This document shows, in pieces, positions 37,689-42,421 of a stretch of DNA of 64,000 nucleotides. The DNA lies in NCBI GenBank assembly GCA_030160035.1, contig BSNO01000003.1:1302001-1366000 (forward strand), given 5' to 3'. Made by a program: the position numbers and the translations under genes. The notes under the pieces are model-generated. The model was not told the DNA's origin. It saw nothing but the letters and a program-made list of their open reading frames with translations, and searched no databases. The stretch's first letter is position 1, and the number at the start of each line of letters is the position of its first letter. The stretch comes from Rhizobium albus (GTDB taxonomy: Bacteria > Pseudomonadota > Alphaproteobacteria > Rhizobiales > Rhizobiaceae).

Positions 37689-39125
37689 CTACTCGGCGGC
37701 TTGACGAAAATCGCTTTCGCCAAGCCATGCGGCGCAATCGGCGAGCGCGCGATGTGCCATGGCGCGCTTCTTGGCGACCGTTTTGTCCTTGCCGCGAAAG
37801 CGCTTCACGCCCTCCGGCCGCACGATCGCTCCCGGGTCCAGTGGCGGGAACAGACCGAAATTGACGTTCATCGGCTGGAACGACCGCTTGCCCGGCTCAT
37901 CGTCGGAAACGATATGGCCACCCGTAATATGCCCCAGCAGCGACCCGAAAGCGGACGTCGCAGGTGGCACGGAGGGCGCAAGGCCCTTGGCCTCCGCCGC
38001 AGCGAAGCGACCGGCCAGGAGACCGATTGCGGCCGATTCGACATAGCCTTCGCAGCCCGTAATCTGTCCGGCAAAGCGGATGTCCGAACGCGCCTTCAGG
38101 CGCAGCGTCGCGTCGAGCAGCACCGGCGAGTTGAGATAGGTGTTGCGATGCAGGCCACCGAGACGGGCGAATTCGGCATGCTGCAGCCCGGGTATCATCC
38201 GGAAGATCTCGGTCTGTGCGCCATATTTCAGCTTGGTCTGGAAGCCGACCATGTTGAAGAGCGTACCGAGAGCATTGTCCTGGCGCAGCTGGACGACCGC
38301 GTAGGCCTTCTCGGTCGGCTTGTGGGCGTTGGTCAGGCCCATCGGCTTCATCGGCCCATGGCGAAGCGTTTCGCGGCCTCGCTCGGCCATTACTTCGATC
38401 GGGAGGCAGCCATCGAAATAGGGCGTGCCTTCCCAATCCTTGAAGCTCGTCTTGTCGCCGGCCAGCAATGCGTCGACGAAGGCGTTGTATTCCGCTTCCG
38501 TCATCGGGCAGTTGATATAGTCTTTGCCCGTGCCGCCGGGGCCGACCTTGTCGTAGCGCGACTGATACCAGCAGATATCCATGTCGATGGACTCGGCGTG
38601 GACGATCGGCGCGATCGCATCGAAGAAGGCGAGGGCATCGGCACCCGTGACTTCACCGATCGATTCGGCGAGCGAGGGCGCCGTCAGGGGACCGGTGGCG
38701 ATGATCGTCCGACCCCATTCGACGGGTGGCAGGCCCGTCACTTCCTCACGCTCGATGGTGACGAGCGGATGGTCGTTCAGCGCCTTCGTCACGGCGTCGG
38801 AAAAGCCCACTCGGTCGACGGCAAGCGCGCCTCCTGCCGGCACCTGATTGCGGTCGCCGCACGCCATGATGAGCGACCCGGCAAGCCGCATCTCGGCATG
38901 CAGGACGCCGACCGCGTTCGTCTCCGCATCGTCCGACCGAAACGAGTTCGAGCAGACGAGTTCGGCGAGGCCGTCGGTGAGGTGGGCATCGGTGCCGCGG
39001 ATCGGTCGCATTTCGTGGAGAACGACGGGAACGCCTGCCTGAGCGATCTGCCAGGCGGCTTCCGAGCCTGCAAGTCCTCCGCCGATCACGTGAACGGGCT
39101 TTGGGTGATCTGCTGTATCTGTCAT
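37689..39125 (-). CDS. trmFO: methylenetetrahydrofolate--tRNA-(uracil-5-)-methyltransferase
   Basis: The 478-residue flavoprotein makes the m5U54 (ribothymidine) of the tRNA T loop, using methylene-THF. The FAD-binding site is [17 protein letters not shown], followed by [19 protein letters not shown] and later the [18 protein letters not shown] and FRGKDKT-type segments. The C-terminal [11 protein letters not shown] is also typical. It is the last gene of a minus-strand group whose upstream members are DUF1127 genes (43 bases away), so it may be read from the same transcripts. Confidence 0.95.
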
Positions 39126-39168: not shown

Positions 39169-39309
39169 TCAGCGCGCCTGGCGTCCGCTGCGGGCAACGT
39201 CGAAACGCGTCAGGCCGATGTCTTCGAGCGTCTCGTTGGAGAGGCCGCGAAGCGTGTTCATGGTGCGGCGACGGCTGAGCCACGACCGGGCATTGTTGAG
39301 AATGAGCAT
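39169..39309 (-). CDS. DUF1127 small Arg-rich protein, copy 1
   Basis: The 46-residue basic protein MLILNNARSWLSRRRTMNTL continues with RGLSNETLEDIGLTRFDVAR. It shows the DUF1127 pattern, an Arg-rich first helix and then L(S/T)-E(T/R)L-DIGL-R-D. Such proteins bind RNA in some alphaproteobacteria (CcaF1 of Rhodobacter) and affect phosphate and stress metabolism. AGGTGA lies four bases before the ATG. It is 43 bases upstream of trmFO on the same strand. Confidence 0.8.
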   Translation of the reverse strand: MLILNNARSWLSRRRTMNTLRGLSNETLEDIGLTRFDVARSGRQAR

Positions 39310-39493: not shown

Positions 39494-39637
39494 TTACTTG
39501 ACCGCGGTGCGAGCCACAAGCGGGATGTCGCGTCGGGTCAGCCCGAGATCAGCGAGCTCTCTGCTCGTCATCTGCTCGAGATCCGTGCAGGCGATACGGT
39601 ATTGGCGCCAGCGCCGAAAGGATTCCGCAAGGCTCAT
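39494..39637 (-). CDS. DUF1127 small Arg-rich protein, copy 2
   Basis: The 47-residue protein begins MSLAESFRRWRQYRIACTDL and continues EQMTSRELADLGLTRRDIPL, the standard DUF1127 sequence with WRxYR and LxxLGxxRxDI. A GGAG lies nine bases before the ATG. Its start lies only 58 bases downstream of the terminator of the hairpin RNA at 39690-39806, so its expression may depend on read-through. A weak stem (ATGCC/GGCAT) follows its stop. Confidence 0.85.
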   Translation of the reverse strand: MSLAESFRRWRQYRIACTDLEQMTSRELADLGLTRRDIPLVARTAVK

Positions 39638-39689: not shown

Positions 39690-39806
39690 CAAGAGCGCCC
39701 GCCGGGGGAGGAGATCCGGCGGGCGCACTTTGTTTGATCGGAAGCTGGGAGGAGGAGGGCCGCCGATCGCTCGGCCCGACACTGGGAGGAGGAGTGTGTC
39801 CGGCCG
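39690..39806 (-). ncRNA. triple-hairpin RNA with CUCCUCCC loops (cuckoo/alpha-r14-like), 3' of DUF1127 copy 3
   Basis: Reading the minus strand there are three consecutive hairpins. SL1 has the stem GGCC.GACAC/GTGTC.GGCC (39773-39782 with 39796-39805). SL2 has the stem GATCGG/CCGATC (39763-39768 with 39736-39741). SL3 has an 11-bp stem GCGCCCGCCGG/CCGGCGGGCGC (39716-39726 with 39695-39705) followed by TCTTGTTTT. Each apical loop contains CUCCUCCC or CUCCUCCUCCC, matching the 16S anti-Shine-Dalgarno. The array starts about ten bases after the DUF1127 copy 3 stop, the layout of Rhodobacter CcaF1-CcsR (cuckoo RNAs). SL3 looks like an intrinsic terminator. Confidence 0.82.
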
Positions 39807-39816
39807 AATTTCGTAA

Positions 39817-39957
39817 TTAGATCGCCTGGCGAGCGATGCGCGCGATGTCAGCGCGGTTTACACCGATGTCGCTGAGTTCGCGGTCCGACATGCGGGCCAG
39901 TTCGTTGCGGGTCTGACGGTACTTGCGCCAGTTGTTGAAAGTGCGTGCTACGTTCAT
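39817..39957 (-). CDS. DUF1127 small Arg-rich protein, copy 3 (CcaF1-like)
   Basis: The 46-residue protein begins MNVARTFNNWRKYRQTRNEL and continues ARMSDRELSDIGVNRADIARIARQAI, the closest of the three copies to the DUF1127 consensus. I chose the ATG at 39957: AAGGA lies seven bases upstream, whereas an ATG two codons earlier (39963) would sit on top of it. The promoter block at 40010-40072 lies just upstream and the hairpin RNA at 39690-39806 just downstream, so ORF and RNA are probably one transcript, later processed. Confidence 0.9.
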   Translation of the reverse strand: MNVARTFNNWRKYRQTRNELARMSDRELSDIGVNRADIARIARQAI

Positions 39958-40009
39958 CTTCATGTCCTTCGTATTTCCCAGGCCTGCTCTTGGGCGGCCC
40001 GATCTCGTT

Positions 40010-40072
40010 GGACTGAAGATAGGTGCGATCACCCAATTTGTGCAGTGCGAAATAAGCATCGTGGCTATGCGC
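40010..40072 (-). promoter_or_regulatory. promoter block of DUF1127 copy 3 and its hairpin RNA
   Basis: On the minus strand a -35-like TGCACA (40039-40044), a 17-base spacer and a -10-like TATCTT (40016-40021) are seen, giving a predicted start near 40009 and a leader of about 50 bases. The upstream side carries an element, CGCACTGCACAAATT, shared with the block at 40407-40469. Confidence 0.6.
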
Positions 40073-40224
40073 TGGCTGCAGACCGAATGAGATCGTTAAG
40101 ATTTGATTCATTTGCACGTGCATCCGCGCTTAGGCCGATGGAGCACGAGATGACGCACGACATTGCTGGCCGCCGCCGGGAACGGCGAGGCGAACCAATC
40201 ATATGATTTATTTGGGAAGATCTG

Positions 40225-40406
40225 AAAAAAATAACGCCCGCTGGGGGAGGAGGATCCAGCGGGCGCCATTTGTAGCGATGAATGGTTGGGAGGAGGAGAA
40301 CCATCCATCATATCGGAGAGGCAATGGGAGGAGGAGTTTGCCGCTCCGAATTCTTTGCCGCCTTACGGGCGACCCTCGATCGAGGCACTCAGTTGCGCCG
40401 TTCGAT
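40225..40406 (-). ncRNA. second triple-hairpin RNA with CUCCUCCC loops (cuckoo/alpha-r14-like)
   Basis: On the minus strand, SL1 pairs CGGAG-GGCAA with TTGCC-CTCCG (40314-40324 with 40338-40348) and has loop ACUCCUCCUCCCA. SL2 has the stem GATG.ATGGTT/AACCAT.CATC (40299-40309 with 40077-type partner at 40277-40287) and loop CUCCUCCUCCC. SL3 is a perfect 10-bp stem CGCCCGCTGG/CCAGCGGGCG (40256-40265 with 40235-40244) with loop AUCCUCCUCCC, followed by TTATTTTTTT, a strong terminator. No DUF1127 frame precedes it, so it looks like a free-standing RNA starting near 40406 at its own promoter. The transcript length is an estimate. Confidence 0.8.
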
Positions 40407-40469
40407 GACTTCAACATAAGGCGACCGATCAGATTTGTGCAGTGCAATATCTGCATGGAAGCCATGCAC
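40407..40469 (-). promoter_or_regulatory. promoter block of the second hairpin RNA
   Basis: On the minus strand TGCACA (40436-40441), 17 bases, then TATGTT (40413-40418). The block repeats the one at 40010-40072, including TTGCACTGCACAAAT and a GCAT/ATGC pair further upstream. The same spacing in both copies supports real promoters. Confidence 0.6.
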
Positions 40470-40753: not shown

Positions 40754-40838
<85 letters not shown>

Positions 40839-40936: not shown

Positions 40937-42421
40937 ATGCAGGTAACCGAGACCCTGGCCGAAGGCCTGAAGCGCGAGATCAAAGTCGTCGTGCCCGCGC
41001 AGGAGATGGAGCAGAAGCTCAACGAGCGCCTGGCCGATGCCAAGAACAAGGTCCGTCTGAACGGCTTCCGCCCCGGCAAGGTGCCGATGTCGCATCTCAA
41101 GAAGATGTACGGCAAGTCGTTCATGGCCGATCTCGTCAATGAGATCATCCGCGACAAGCCGGGCGCGATCCTGACAGAGCGCGGCGAGCGCTCCGCCACG
41201 CAGCCTGAAATCAAGATGACCGAGGACGAGGCGGAAGCCAACGAGATCCTCGACGCCAAGAAGGACTTCGAGTTCTCGCTGGCCTACGAAGTCATCCCGG
41301 CAATCGAACTCAAGGGCGATTCCAAGCTGACGGTCACGCGCGAAGTCGTCGACATTCCGGATGAGGAAGTCGAAGAGCAGGTGCTCCGCATCGCCGAGAA
41401 CGCCAAGACCTATGAGACCAAGAAGGGCAAGGCTGCCGACGGCGATCGCGTGACCATCGACTATCTCGGCAAGATCGACGGCGAGCCCTTCGATGGCGGC
41501 AAGGACGACGATGCCGAACTGGTCATCGGCTCCAAGCGCTTCATTCCCGGCTTCGAAGAGCAACTGGTCGGCGTGAAGGCCGGCGACGAGAAGACGATCA
41601 CAGTTTCGTTCCCGGATGATTACCCGGCGGCCAACCTTGCCGGCAAGGAAGCCACCTTCGACATCAAGGTCAAGGACGTCGCCGCTGCGGCCGAACTGAC
41701 GATCGACGACGAGCTGGCCAAGAAGCTCGGCCTCGAATCGGCCGATAAGCTGCGCGAAGTCGTTCGCGGTCAGATCGAGAGCCAGTACGGCCAGATGACG
41801 CGCCAGAAGGTGAAGCGTCAGATCCTCGACCAGCTCGACGAACTCTACCAGTTCGACACGCCCGAGACGCTTGTCGACGCCGAGTTCAACAACATCTGGA
41901 CGCAGATCACCCGTGATCTCGAACAGTCCGGCAAGAGCTTCGAAGACGAGGACACGACCGAGGAAGCAGCGCGCGAAGAGTATCGCAAGCTTGCCGAACG
42001 CCGCGTCCGCCTCGGTCTGGTTCTTTCCGAGATCGGCGAAAAGGCCGGCGTGAAGGTTGCCGACGAGGAAATGCAGCGCGCGCTCTATGAGCAGGTTCGC
42101 CAGTTCCCCGGCCAGGAACGCCAGATCATGGAATATTTCCAGAAGACCCCGGGTGCAGCCGCATCGCTGCGCGCGCCGATCTTCGAGGAAAAGGTCATCG
42201 ATCACCTGCTTTCCGAAGCCGACGTCACCGACAAGACCGTCAGCAAGGAAGAGCTGATGGCTGAAGACGAGGACGAGACGGGCAGCAAGGCTGAAGCTTC
42301 CGAAAAGAAGCCTGCCAAGAAGAAGGCTGCCAAGAAGGACGAGACGGTTGCCGCCGACGAGGGCGAAAAGAAGCCCGCCAAGAAGAAGGCAGCCAAGAAG
42401 GACGACGCCGAAGAGGCCTGA
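40937..42421 (+). CDS. tig: trigger factor
   Basis: The 494-residue ribosome-bound chaperone and prolyl isomerase has the ribosome-docking signature GFRPGKVP, an FKBP-type PPIase domain ([21 protein letters not shown] to [18 protein letters not shown]) and a helical C-terminal domain ([31 protein letters not shown]). After it comes an unusual 45-residue tail with repeated [12 protein letters not shown], resembling histone H1-like tails, as in some other Rhizobiales. The ATG at 40937 follows AAGAAGGTG. The next gene has its own start after an intrinsic terminator. In other bacteria clpP usually follows tig, but not here. Confidence 0.96.

Follow-up and report, generated by a model that had tools for sequence, protein, structure and literature searches.

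The two ar14 RNAs and their locus

The window (the whole 64-kb stretch of Rhizobium albus DNA that was analysed) was found to carry two arrays of three hairpins apiece on its minus strand, at 40229-40354 and 39690-39812, lying among small DUF1127 genes and bordered by trmFO-like, tRNA-Leu and tig genes. The span picked out by the first-pass annotation, 39690-40406, also covers one of these DUF1127 genes (DUF1127 #3) and extends into the region upstream of ar14-1. The features of the locus are as follows:

37692-39125, minus strand: trmFO-like gene (GidA family; PF01134), syntenic landmark
39169-39309, minus strand: DUF1127 #1, 46 aa (PF06568, E 3.8e-10)
39494-39637, minus strand: DUF1127 #2, 47 aa (PF06568, E 3.6e-11)
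39690-39812, minus strand: ar14-2, the second copy, in the 3'UTR position of DUF1127 #3 (RF02344)
39817-39963, minus strand: DUF1127 #3, host gene of ar14-2, 47-48 aa, with the ATG of 39963 or of 39957 as start (PF06568, E 8.3e-19)
40229-40354, minus strand: ar14-1, stand-alone sRNA of the ar14/NfeR1 type (RF02344)
40754-40838, plus strand: tRNA-Leu, syntenic landmark (Rfam tRNA match)
40937-42418, plus strand: tig (trigger factor), syntenic landmark (PF05697, PF05698)

The predicted folds were considerably more stable than dinucleotide shuffles of the same sequences, with z-scores of -8.8 (ar14-1) and -5.8 (ar14-2) and 0/200 shuffles as stable. The loops of hairpins 1 and 2 of both arrays contain CUCCUCCUCCC and those of hairpin 3 contain CCUCCUCCC or UCUCCUCCC, with the third hairpin of ar14-1 being followed by a U run. 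When the window was searched against all 4227 Rfam families, both arrays were identified as ar14 (RF02344) over the complete model (positions 1-123 of 123), scoring 112.5 bits (ar14-1) and 105.3 bits (ar14-2) against a gathering cut-off of 58.8 bits, with E-values in the whole-window search of 5.3e-20 and 2.1e-18, respectively. The sole other family above its cut-off in the window was tRNA; ar7, 6C and other weak Rfam matches all scored under their own cut-offs and were rejected. A genome-wide search with RF02344 returned no copies beyond the two in the window.

The two window copies were aligned with one copy per locus from 29 loci of relatives (31 copies in total). Within this alignment the stems are variable and the loops almost fixed, nearly all positions of the CCUCCUCCC stretches being invariant or at least 90% conserved. 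Both sides had changed in 26 of the 28 consensus pairs, and 90.7% of stem cells were paired, compared with 36–47% when the partners were slid by 1–3 columns; the observed pairing values were reached by 0/500 shuffles. The reading of the arrays as ar14-type sRNAs is supported by (i) the full-length covariance match, (ii) fold stability, (iii) stem covariation, and (iv) synteny (see below). The window RNAs extend a known sRNA family and are not themselves a new type. The two arrays are quite probably paralogous trans-acting sRNAs of the ar14/NfeR1 family, with three anti-Shine-Dalgarno (anti-SD) loops that would act on SD sites, their transcription, processing and physiology being deduced from the sequence.

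The first-pass annotation had proposed two minus-strand triple-hairpin arrays with SD-like repeats on the plus strand, DUF1127 genes adjoining them and kinship with both the NfeR and the Rhodobacter CcsR (cuckoo) RNAs. Its interpretation of the locus was essentially right: the arrays were confirmed by their folds and ar14 matches, the repeated motif is present on the plus strand, three same-strand DUF1127 ORFs lie alongside, and the expected conservation of the loop motifs in relatives was observed. The proposed kinship stood for ar14/NfeR1 and not for CcsR1 (RF02791), an identity rejected at 28.3 bits for both copies with a cut-off of 65.3; as this model falls so far below its cut-off, the term cuckoo/CcsR can describe a looser kinship only.

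Host genes and conservation of the locus

DUF1127 #3 is located between the two arrays with DUF1127 #2 and #1 downstream, all being on the same strand as ar14, and a fourth DUF1127 gene is found elsewhere in the genome. DUF1127 #2 and #1, which lie between ar14-2 and trmFO, score below #3 against Pfam. ar14-2 starts only 4 nt past the stop codon of DUF1127 #3, and upstream of ar14-1 no same-strand DUF1127 ORF was found within 400 nt. The association suggested by the first-pass annotation recurs among relatives: of 100 ar14 places, 47 have a DUF1127 ORF on their own strand whose end lies under 400 nt upstream. These 47 come from 29 of 36 genomes (a set including the Rhizobium albus genome and one genome, G050, from another family), and the gap is 0–12 nt at 24 of the 47 places. 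The 100 places comprise matches above the gathering score and five slightly below it within tandem arrays; two others that scored about the same (57.5 and 57.4) were excluded, as was everything weaker. Tandem ar14 arrays were seen in Aurantimonas (six copies in locus L062 and four in L078), while four tandem copies lie behind one DUF1127 ORF in L167 and several lie in L174, where no DUF1127 ORF was found.

The pairing of a DUF1127 gene with an sRNA is already known as CIN1 (PMC10253847), and its arrangement, a same-strand DUF1127 ORF directly upstream of an anti-SD sRNA, is seen at ar14-2. The CcsR1-4 RNAs of the Rhodobacter CIN1 locus likewise carry CCUCCUCCC loops directly downstream of a DUF1127 gene, ccaF1. 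Co-transcription and release, reported in Rhodobacter with RNase E, may be a further likeness; however, the ccaF1-CcsR promoter is of the RpoHI/RpoHII type (PMC10253847), whereas a PhaR/LsrB-type promoter is predicted here. Both RNA-binding (CcaF1) and protein-binding (with PhoR) have been reported for DUF1127 proteins, the question being still debated (PMC12501420). A contribution of DUF1127 #3 to the maturation of ar14-2 is thus no more than possible.

A second kind of ar14 host gene beside DUF1127 is the phasin gene. In six relatives ar14 starts 9–29 nt after a phasin stop codon (loci L140 in G010, L145 in G032, L159 in G033, L165 in G029, L170 in G009, and L172 in G017), and all six host genes score above the NCBIfam phasin cut-off (TIGR01985). 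Five of the six, all but G029, have a PhaR-like box (described below) 544–572 nt upstream of ar14 and hence in front of the phasin gene. No printed report of a phasin-ar14 pairing was found in the literature searched, a coverage that stops short of the cuckoo RNA paper itself.

The window locus is syntenic with that of Sinorhizobium meliloti Ak57, where the order is tig, tRNA-Leu, ar14 copy A, ar14 copy B, DUF1127, DUF1127, trmFO, the tandem ar14 pair thus occupying the same position. The Ak57 record is labelled pSymB, yet is 3.7 Mb in size and carries tig and trmFO, which makes a mislabelled replicon possible. Its annotation places a group II intron reverse transcriptase beside tig (L259 1-365). 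Just upstream of copy B lie TGCATCACTTGCAT (TGCA-N6-GCAT) and CTATAT. These match the features printed for the NfeR1 promoter (PMC10746234) and copy B is therefore taken to be NfeR1, an identification made in the present analysis. From the gene order and the identity of copy B, the window locus looks like an ortholog of the nfeR1 locus. It shares with S. meliloti ar14/NfeR1 the full-length covariance match, the three hairpins, identical anti-SD loops, the tig-trmFO location and an LsrB-type motif in the predicted promoter. It differs in that ar14-1 has a leader before its first hairpin and ar14-2 lies in a DUF1127 3'UTR.

Of 199 genomes belonging to the same bacterial family, 194 have an ar14 match at E <= 0.001 (184 above the cut-off). 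In the first genome set, which includes Rhizobium albus, 44 of 60 genomes had a match (36 above the cut-off), the misses being mostly outside the family. The closest TrmFO among the named genomes searched, a set that may lack the genome itself and its nearest relatives, is that of Pararhizobium haloflavum (84%), and an ar14 match 5' of trmFO was found in 48 of 80 named TrmFO loci (model from the 31 copies, E <= 0.01).

Predicted promoter elements in the window and in relatives

A sigma-70 consensus scan of the locus gave no usable promoter and a terminator consensus scan gave counts near chance. A promoter model was derived from comparison of relatives after the consensus scan gave none, with the following elements at the two window units:

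40443-40456, minus strand: LsrB-type motif ATGC-N6-TGCA (the reverse of TGCA-N6-GCAT) of ar14-1, 0 mismatches to the motif of PMC10746234, overlapping the PhaR-like box
40435-40447, minus strand: PhaR-like box TTGCACTGCACAA over the putative -35 TGCACA (40436-40441) of ar14-1, one mismatch to the published 21-nt PhaR motif
40413-40418, minus strand: putative -10 TATGTT of the ar14-1 promoter, 17 nt after TGCACA (spacing comparison over 61 boxes)
40067-40080, minus strand: LsrB-type motif TGCA-N6-GCAT upstream of DUF1127 #3, 0 mismatches
40035-40055, minus strand: published 21-nt PhaR motif, exact, in the DUF1127 #3 promoter (motif search)
40038-40050, minus strand: core TCGCACTGCACAA over the putative -35 of DUF1127 #3 (motif search)
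40016-40021, minus strand: putative -10 TATCTT of the promoter of DUF1127 #3 and ar14-2, 17 nt after TGCACA (spacing comparison)

The two units are laid out alike: the LsrB-type motif is followed by TTGCACTGCACAA or TCGCACTGCACAA, and a -10-like hexamer stands 17 nt beyond TGCACA in each. Transcription is predicted to start near 40406 (ar14-1) and near 40009 (DUF1127 #3 and ar14-2) on the minus strand. PhaR (AniA) is a PHB-binding repressor whose motif, WNWDDNYGCRNYGCRNHHWNW, has been printed together with the phaP1 site TTATTGTGCACTGCACAAATT (Lagares et al., 2025; PMC12542648), and a PhaR gene is present in the genome (PF07879). The full motif matches only at DUF1127 #3, and this is the sole exact 21-mer match in the window; five places match with at most one mismatch. 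Exact TGCA-N6-GCAT is found upstream of both units and in 9/320 random windows, and the VtlR 15-mer matches the two units poorly (3 and 6 mismatches). The predicted -35/-10 pairs, TGCACA-N17-TATGTT and TGCACA-N17-TATCTT, differ from the CTTAGAC-N17-CTATAT of the sigma-70 promoter of NfeR1. The PhaR-like box over the putative -35 of both window units is, by eye, lacking just upstream of S. meliloti copy B; copy A has a TTGCACTGCACAA box with TATATT 17 nt after TGCACA (L259 2869-2905).

The box TTGCRNTGCACAA was read off the window itself; the published motifs served afterwards as a check of greater independence. Five exact sites of this box exist in the genome: one each before ar14-1, a phasin gene and a 3-hydroxybutyrate dehydrogenase gene, and two in places without clear PHB genes. 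The latter two (L176, G000:C1:403860; L179, G000:C3:177001) have a murA-like gene nearby and an SGNH-hydrolase-like gene downstream of the box among their neighbours, as named by eye. With one mismatch allowed, 35 genome sites were found compared with 12 for a reversed control, so that many of the single-mismatch sites are due to chance.

The published motifs were counted in 250-nt promoters of relatives. The exact PhaR motif was found in 18/30 phasin, 1/24 abcR, 8/49 stand-alone ar14 and 8/31 DUF1127-ar14 promoters and in 2/320 random windows, the last being drawn from TrmFO loci and largely coding, and therefore an imperfect background for intergenic DNA. Most ar14 units lack an exact match, which was seen in just 16 of 80. 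With at most one mismatch the motif occurs in 23/30 phasin, 3/24 abcR, 20/49 stand-alone ar14 and 17/31 DUF1127-ar14 promoters (random 17/320), and 26 of the 36 genomes have at least one ar14 unit with it. The LsrB-type motif, counted here as TGCA-N6-GCAT or GCAT-N3-TG-N3-T, is present in 15/24 abcR, 1/30 phasin, 30/49 stand-alone ar14 and 20/31 DUF1127-ar14 promoters (random 19/320). Both motifs together (PhaR with at most one mismatch) occur in 14/49 stand-alone ar14, 13/31 DUF1127-ar14, 3/24 abcR and 1/30 phasin promoters and 3/320 random windows; the PhaR and LsrB sites are both TGCA repeats and overlap at ar14-1, so that the two counts are not independent there. Our own box was seen at 16 phasin, 17 stand-alone ar14, 20 DUF1127-ar14 and 3 abcR promoters, with dinucleotide-shuffled promoters averaging 0.05–0.4 per set (shuffles cover this box and the VtlR 15-mer only). 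Among the relatives, then, the PhaR motif prevails at phasin promoters and the LsrB motif at abcR promoters, whereas both are seen at ar14 promoters.

The 49 and 31 ar14 units were obtained after tandem copies behind another ar14 and DUF1127 gaps of 110–400 nt had been dropped. The phasin promoters represent 30 matches of ~60 listed, with positions taken relative to where the profile match begins and not to the start codon, in a genome set overlapping the ar14 set only partly. The abcR promoters represent 24 matches above the cut-off, and close relatives (three genomes of one genus) were counted separately.

In 17 of the 61 distinct boxes, a -10-like hexamer follows TGCACA at a distance of exactly 17 nt, and every other offset between 6 and 36 gives five at most; the remaining boxes either have a VtlR-like site immediately on their 3' side, which constitutes a second layout, or follow no clear layout. 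In 25 named loci (29 ar14 copies), hand-picked from the 48 TrmFO loci with an ar14 match, a loose pattern applied with no control placed a PhaR-like box upstream of the first ar14 copy in 19; in the other six, Sinorhizobium glycinis included, this pattern was absent within 420 nt of that copy.

Proposed function and regulation

The ar14 loops can pair with GGGAGGA leaders, and GGGAGGA followed by ATG at 4–9 nt occurs at 69 places in the genome compared with 7 for the reversed pattern. The first 30 of these 69 places, all on contig C1, included 11 solute-binding protein genes and one ABC ATPase gene. Solute-binding proteins accounted for 0/20 genes with an AAAGGAG ribosome binding site (p = 0.0016), a control in which 42 leaders were found, 30 fetched and the 20 with ORFs of at least 89 aa scanned, the other 10 loci having shorter ORFs, several of which are probably not genes. 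This enrichment fits the transporter mRNA targets of NfeR1 in S. meliloti (PMC7143759), and ar14 may regulate such genes; alternatively, solute-binding proteins may simply favour strong SDs. S. meliloti NfeR1 silences ntrBC and transporter mRNAs through its loops (PMC10746234, PMC7143759); the candidate ntrB leader of this genome offers only a 6-nt complement, GAGGAG, to the ar14 loops.

In the mechanism that we propose, ar14-1 would be made as a stand-alone transcript with a short leader and ar14-2 within the 3'UTR of the DUF1127 mRNA, from which it would probably be freed by RNase cleavage in the manner of the CcsR RNAs from ccaF1 mRNA. Each RNA would display three copies of the 16S anti-SD in its loops and compete with 30S subunits for SD sites, above all on mRNAs of periplasmic solute-binding proteins, so lowering nutrient uptake, and the third hairpin would serve also as terminator. 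Three redundant loops, Hfq-independence and loop-dependent silencing are known for NfeR1 (PMC10746234) and may by analogy apply to the window RNAs. The shared promoter type would consist of a PhaR-type operator on the -35 next to an LsrB/VtlR-type activator site. LsrB would turn the RNAs on under redox or nitrogen stress and PhaR would keep them off until titrated by PHB granules, uptake thus being cut when carbon stores are full. The proteins binding these putative operators, like the transcription, processing and physiology of the RNAs, are those that we infer for the window locus. The loops share what we take to be the sequence of the 16S tail. Being of the same sense, they can bind SD sites and cannot pair with the ribosome's own tail, so that of the two partners named by the first-pass annotation, SD sites and ribosome ends, only the former is retained.

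The independence of ar14-2 may be questioned, as it begins just 4 nt beyond the DUF1127 #3 stop codon and could be mainly the 3'UTR and terminator of that mRNA with no separate role in trans, leaving ar14-1 as the only free sRNA. It is also the case that only one of the six S. meliloti copies was reliably detected by Northern blot under the conditions tested (PMC7143759). However, ar14-2 keeps three intact loops, which goes beyond the needs of a terminator, and CcsR RNAs in a like position are released by RNase E and active (PMC10253847); we consider such a purely terminal role rather unlikely. Far more improbable is that the functional element consists of the plus-strand GGGAGGAGG repeats (for example as tandem SD sites or a DNA repeat) and that the hairpins are incidental. 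The repeated GGGAGGAGG motif is indeed carried by that strand, but covarying stems with fixed loops and an Rfam match on the minus strand speak against this, and the ORFs that cover the arrays on the plus strand are either short or lack a match to the known genes looked for.

A different doubt concerns the promoters and leaves the sRNA part unchanged, namely that TTGCACTGCACAA is a second LsrB site (LysR-type, T-N11-A) near the -35 and not a PhaR operator, in which case PHB would be irrelevant. T-N11-A does fit TTGCACTGCACAA itself, LsrB activates NfeR1 and binds TGCA-N6-GCAT (PMC10746234), and LysR-type motifs are said to stand in tandem in most abcR1 promoter sequences (PMC8844928). The three abcR promoters with a PhaR match at up to one mismatch also point this way, as does the merging of the box with a VtlR-type site in two of the three box-bearing abcR promoters. 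Yet 21 of 24 abcR promoters lack the PhaR motif at that stringency while 23 of 30 phasin promoters have it, an LsrB-type match is found in only one of the 30 phasin promoters, and S. meliloti copy B, with its NfeR1 promoter features, has the LsrB motif without a TTGCACTGCACAA-type box just upstream (by eye). A second LsrB site is a serious, if less favoured, explanation. One abcR (ar15) copy is present in the Rhizobium albus genome beside a LysR-type gene, for which no match to any LsrB-specific model was found.

The PhaR operator is given an even chance of being correct. In Rhizobiaceae, the ar14/DUF1127 units would then form a so far undescribed branch of the PhaR regulon, which senses PHB. 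PhaR would occupy the -35 element in a separate class of ar14 promoters (among them those of both window units and of the sister copy of S. meliloti NfeR1) and be released upon PHB accumulation, whereupon the RNAs would shut down the synthesis of solute-binding proteins. The ar14 copies in phasin 3'UTRs of six relatives, five with a PhaR-like box, would provide an alternative link, and LsrB a second, stress-related input. AbcR1/2 (ar15, RF02345) are also anti-SD RNAs acting on transporter mRNAs from an LsrB/VtlR-type promoter, but belong to a separate Rfam family, and the abcR promoters of relatives are mostly without the PhaR motif. MmgR (alpha-r8) of S. meliloti has both an aSD motif and a PhaR (AniA) promoter site that is bound efficiently by PhaR (PMC12542648, PMC7143759), but is of another sRNA family and carries the aSD motif in loop 1 alone. 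An action of VtlR on DUF1127 genes has also been published.

No printed report of PhaR acting on ar14 was found in the literature searched. Neither NfeR1 nor DUF1127 is mentioned in the PhaR paper (PMC12542648), and PhaR and DUF1127 together led, in the literature searched, only to a paper whose title concerns Rhodovulum taxonomy. What was not found in print is thus the PhaR-type putative operator on ar14 promoters and the ar14 copies in phasin 3'UTRs.

If the promoter reading is true, a broad anti-SD riboregulator of nutrient uptake would be tied directly to the state of carbon storage. It could also explain why most S. meliloti ar14 copies went undetected under the laboratory conditions tried, as the PhaR-like box at copy A could account for non-NfeR1 copies escaping detection in the usual media.
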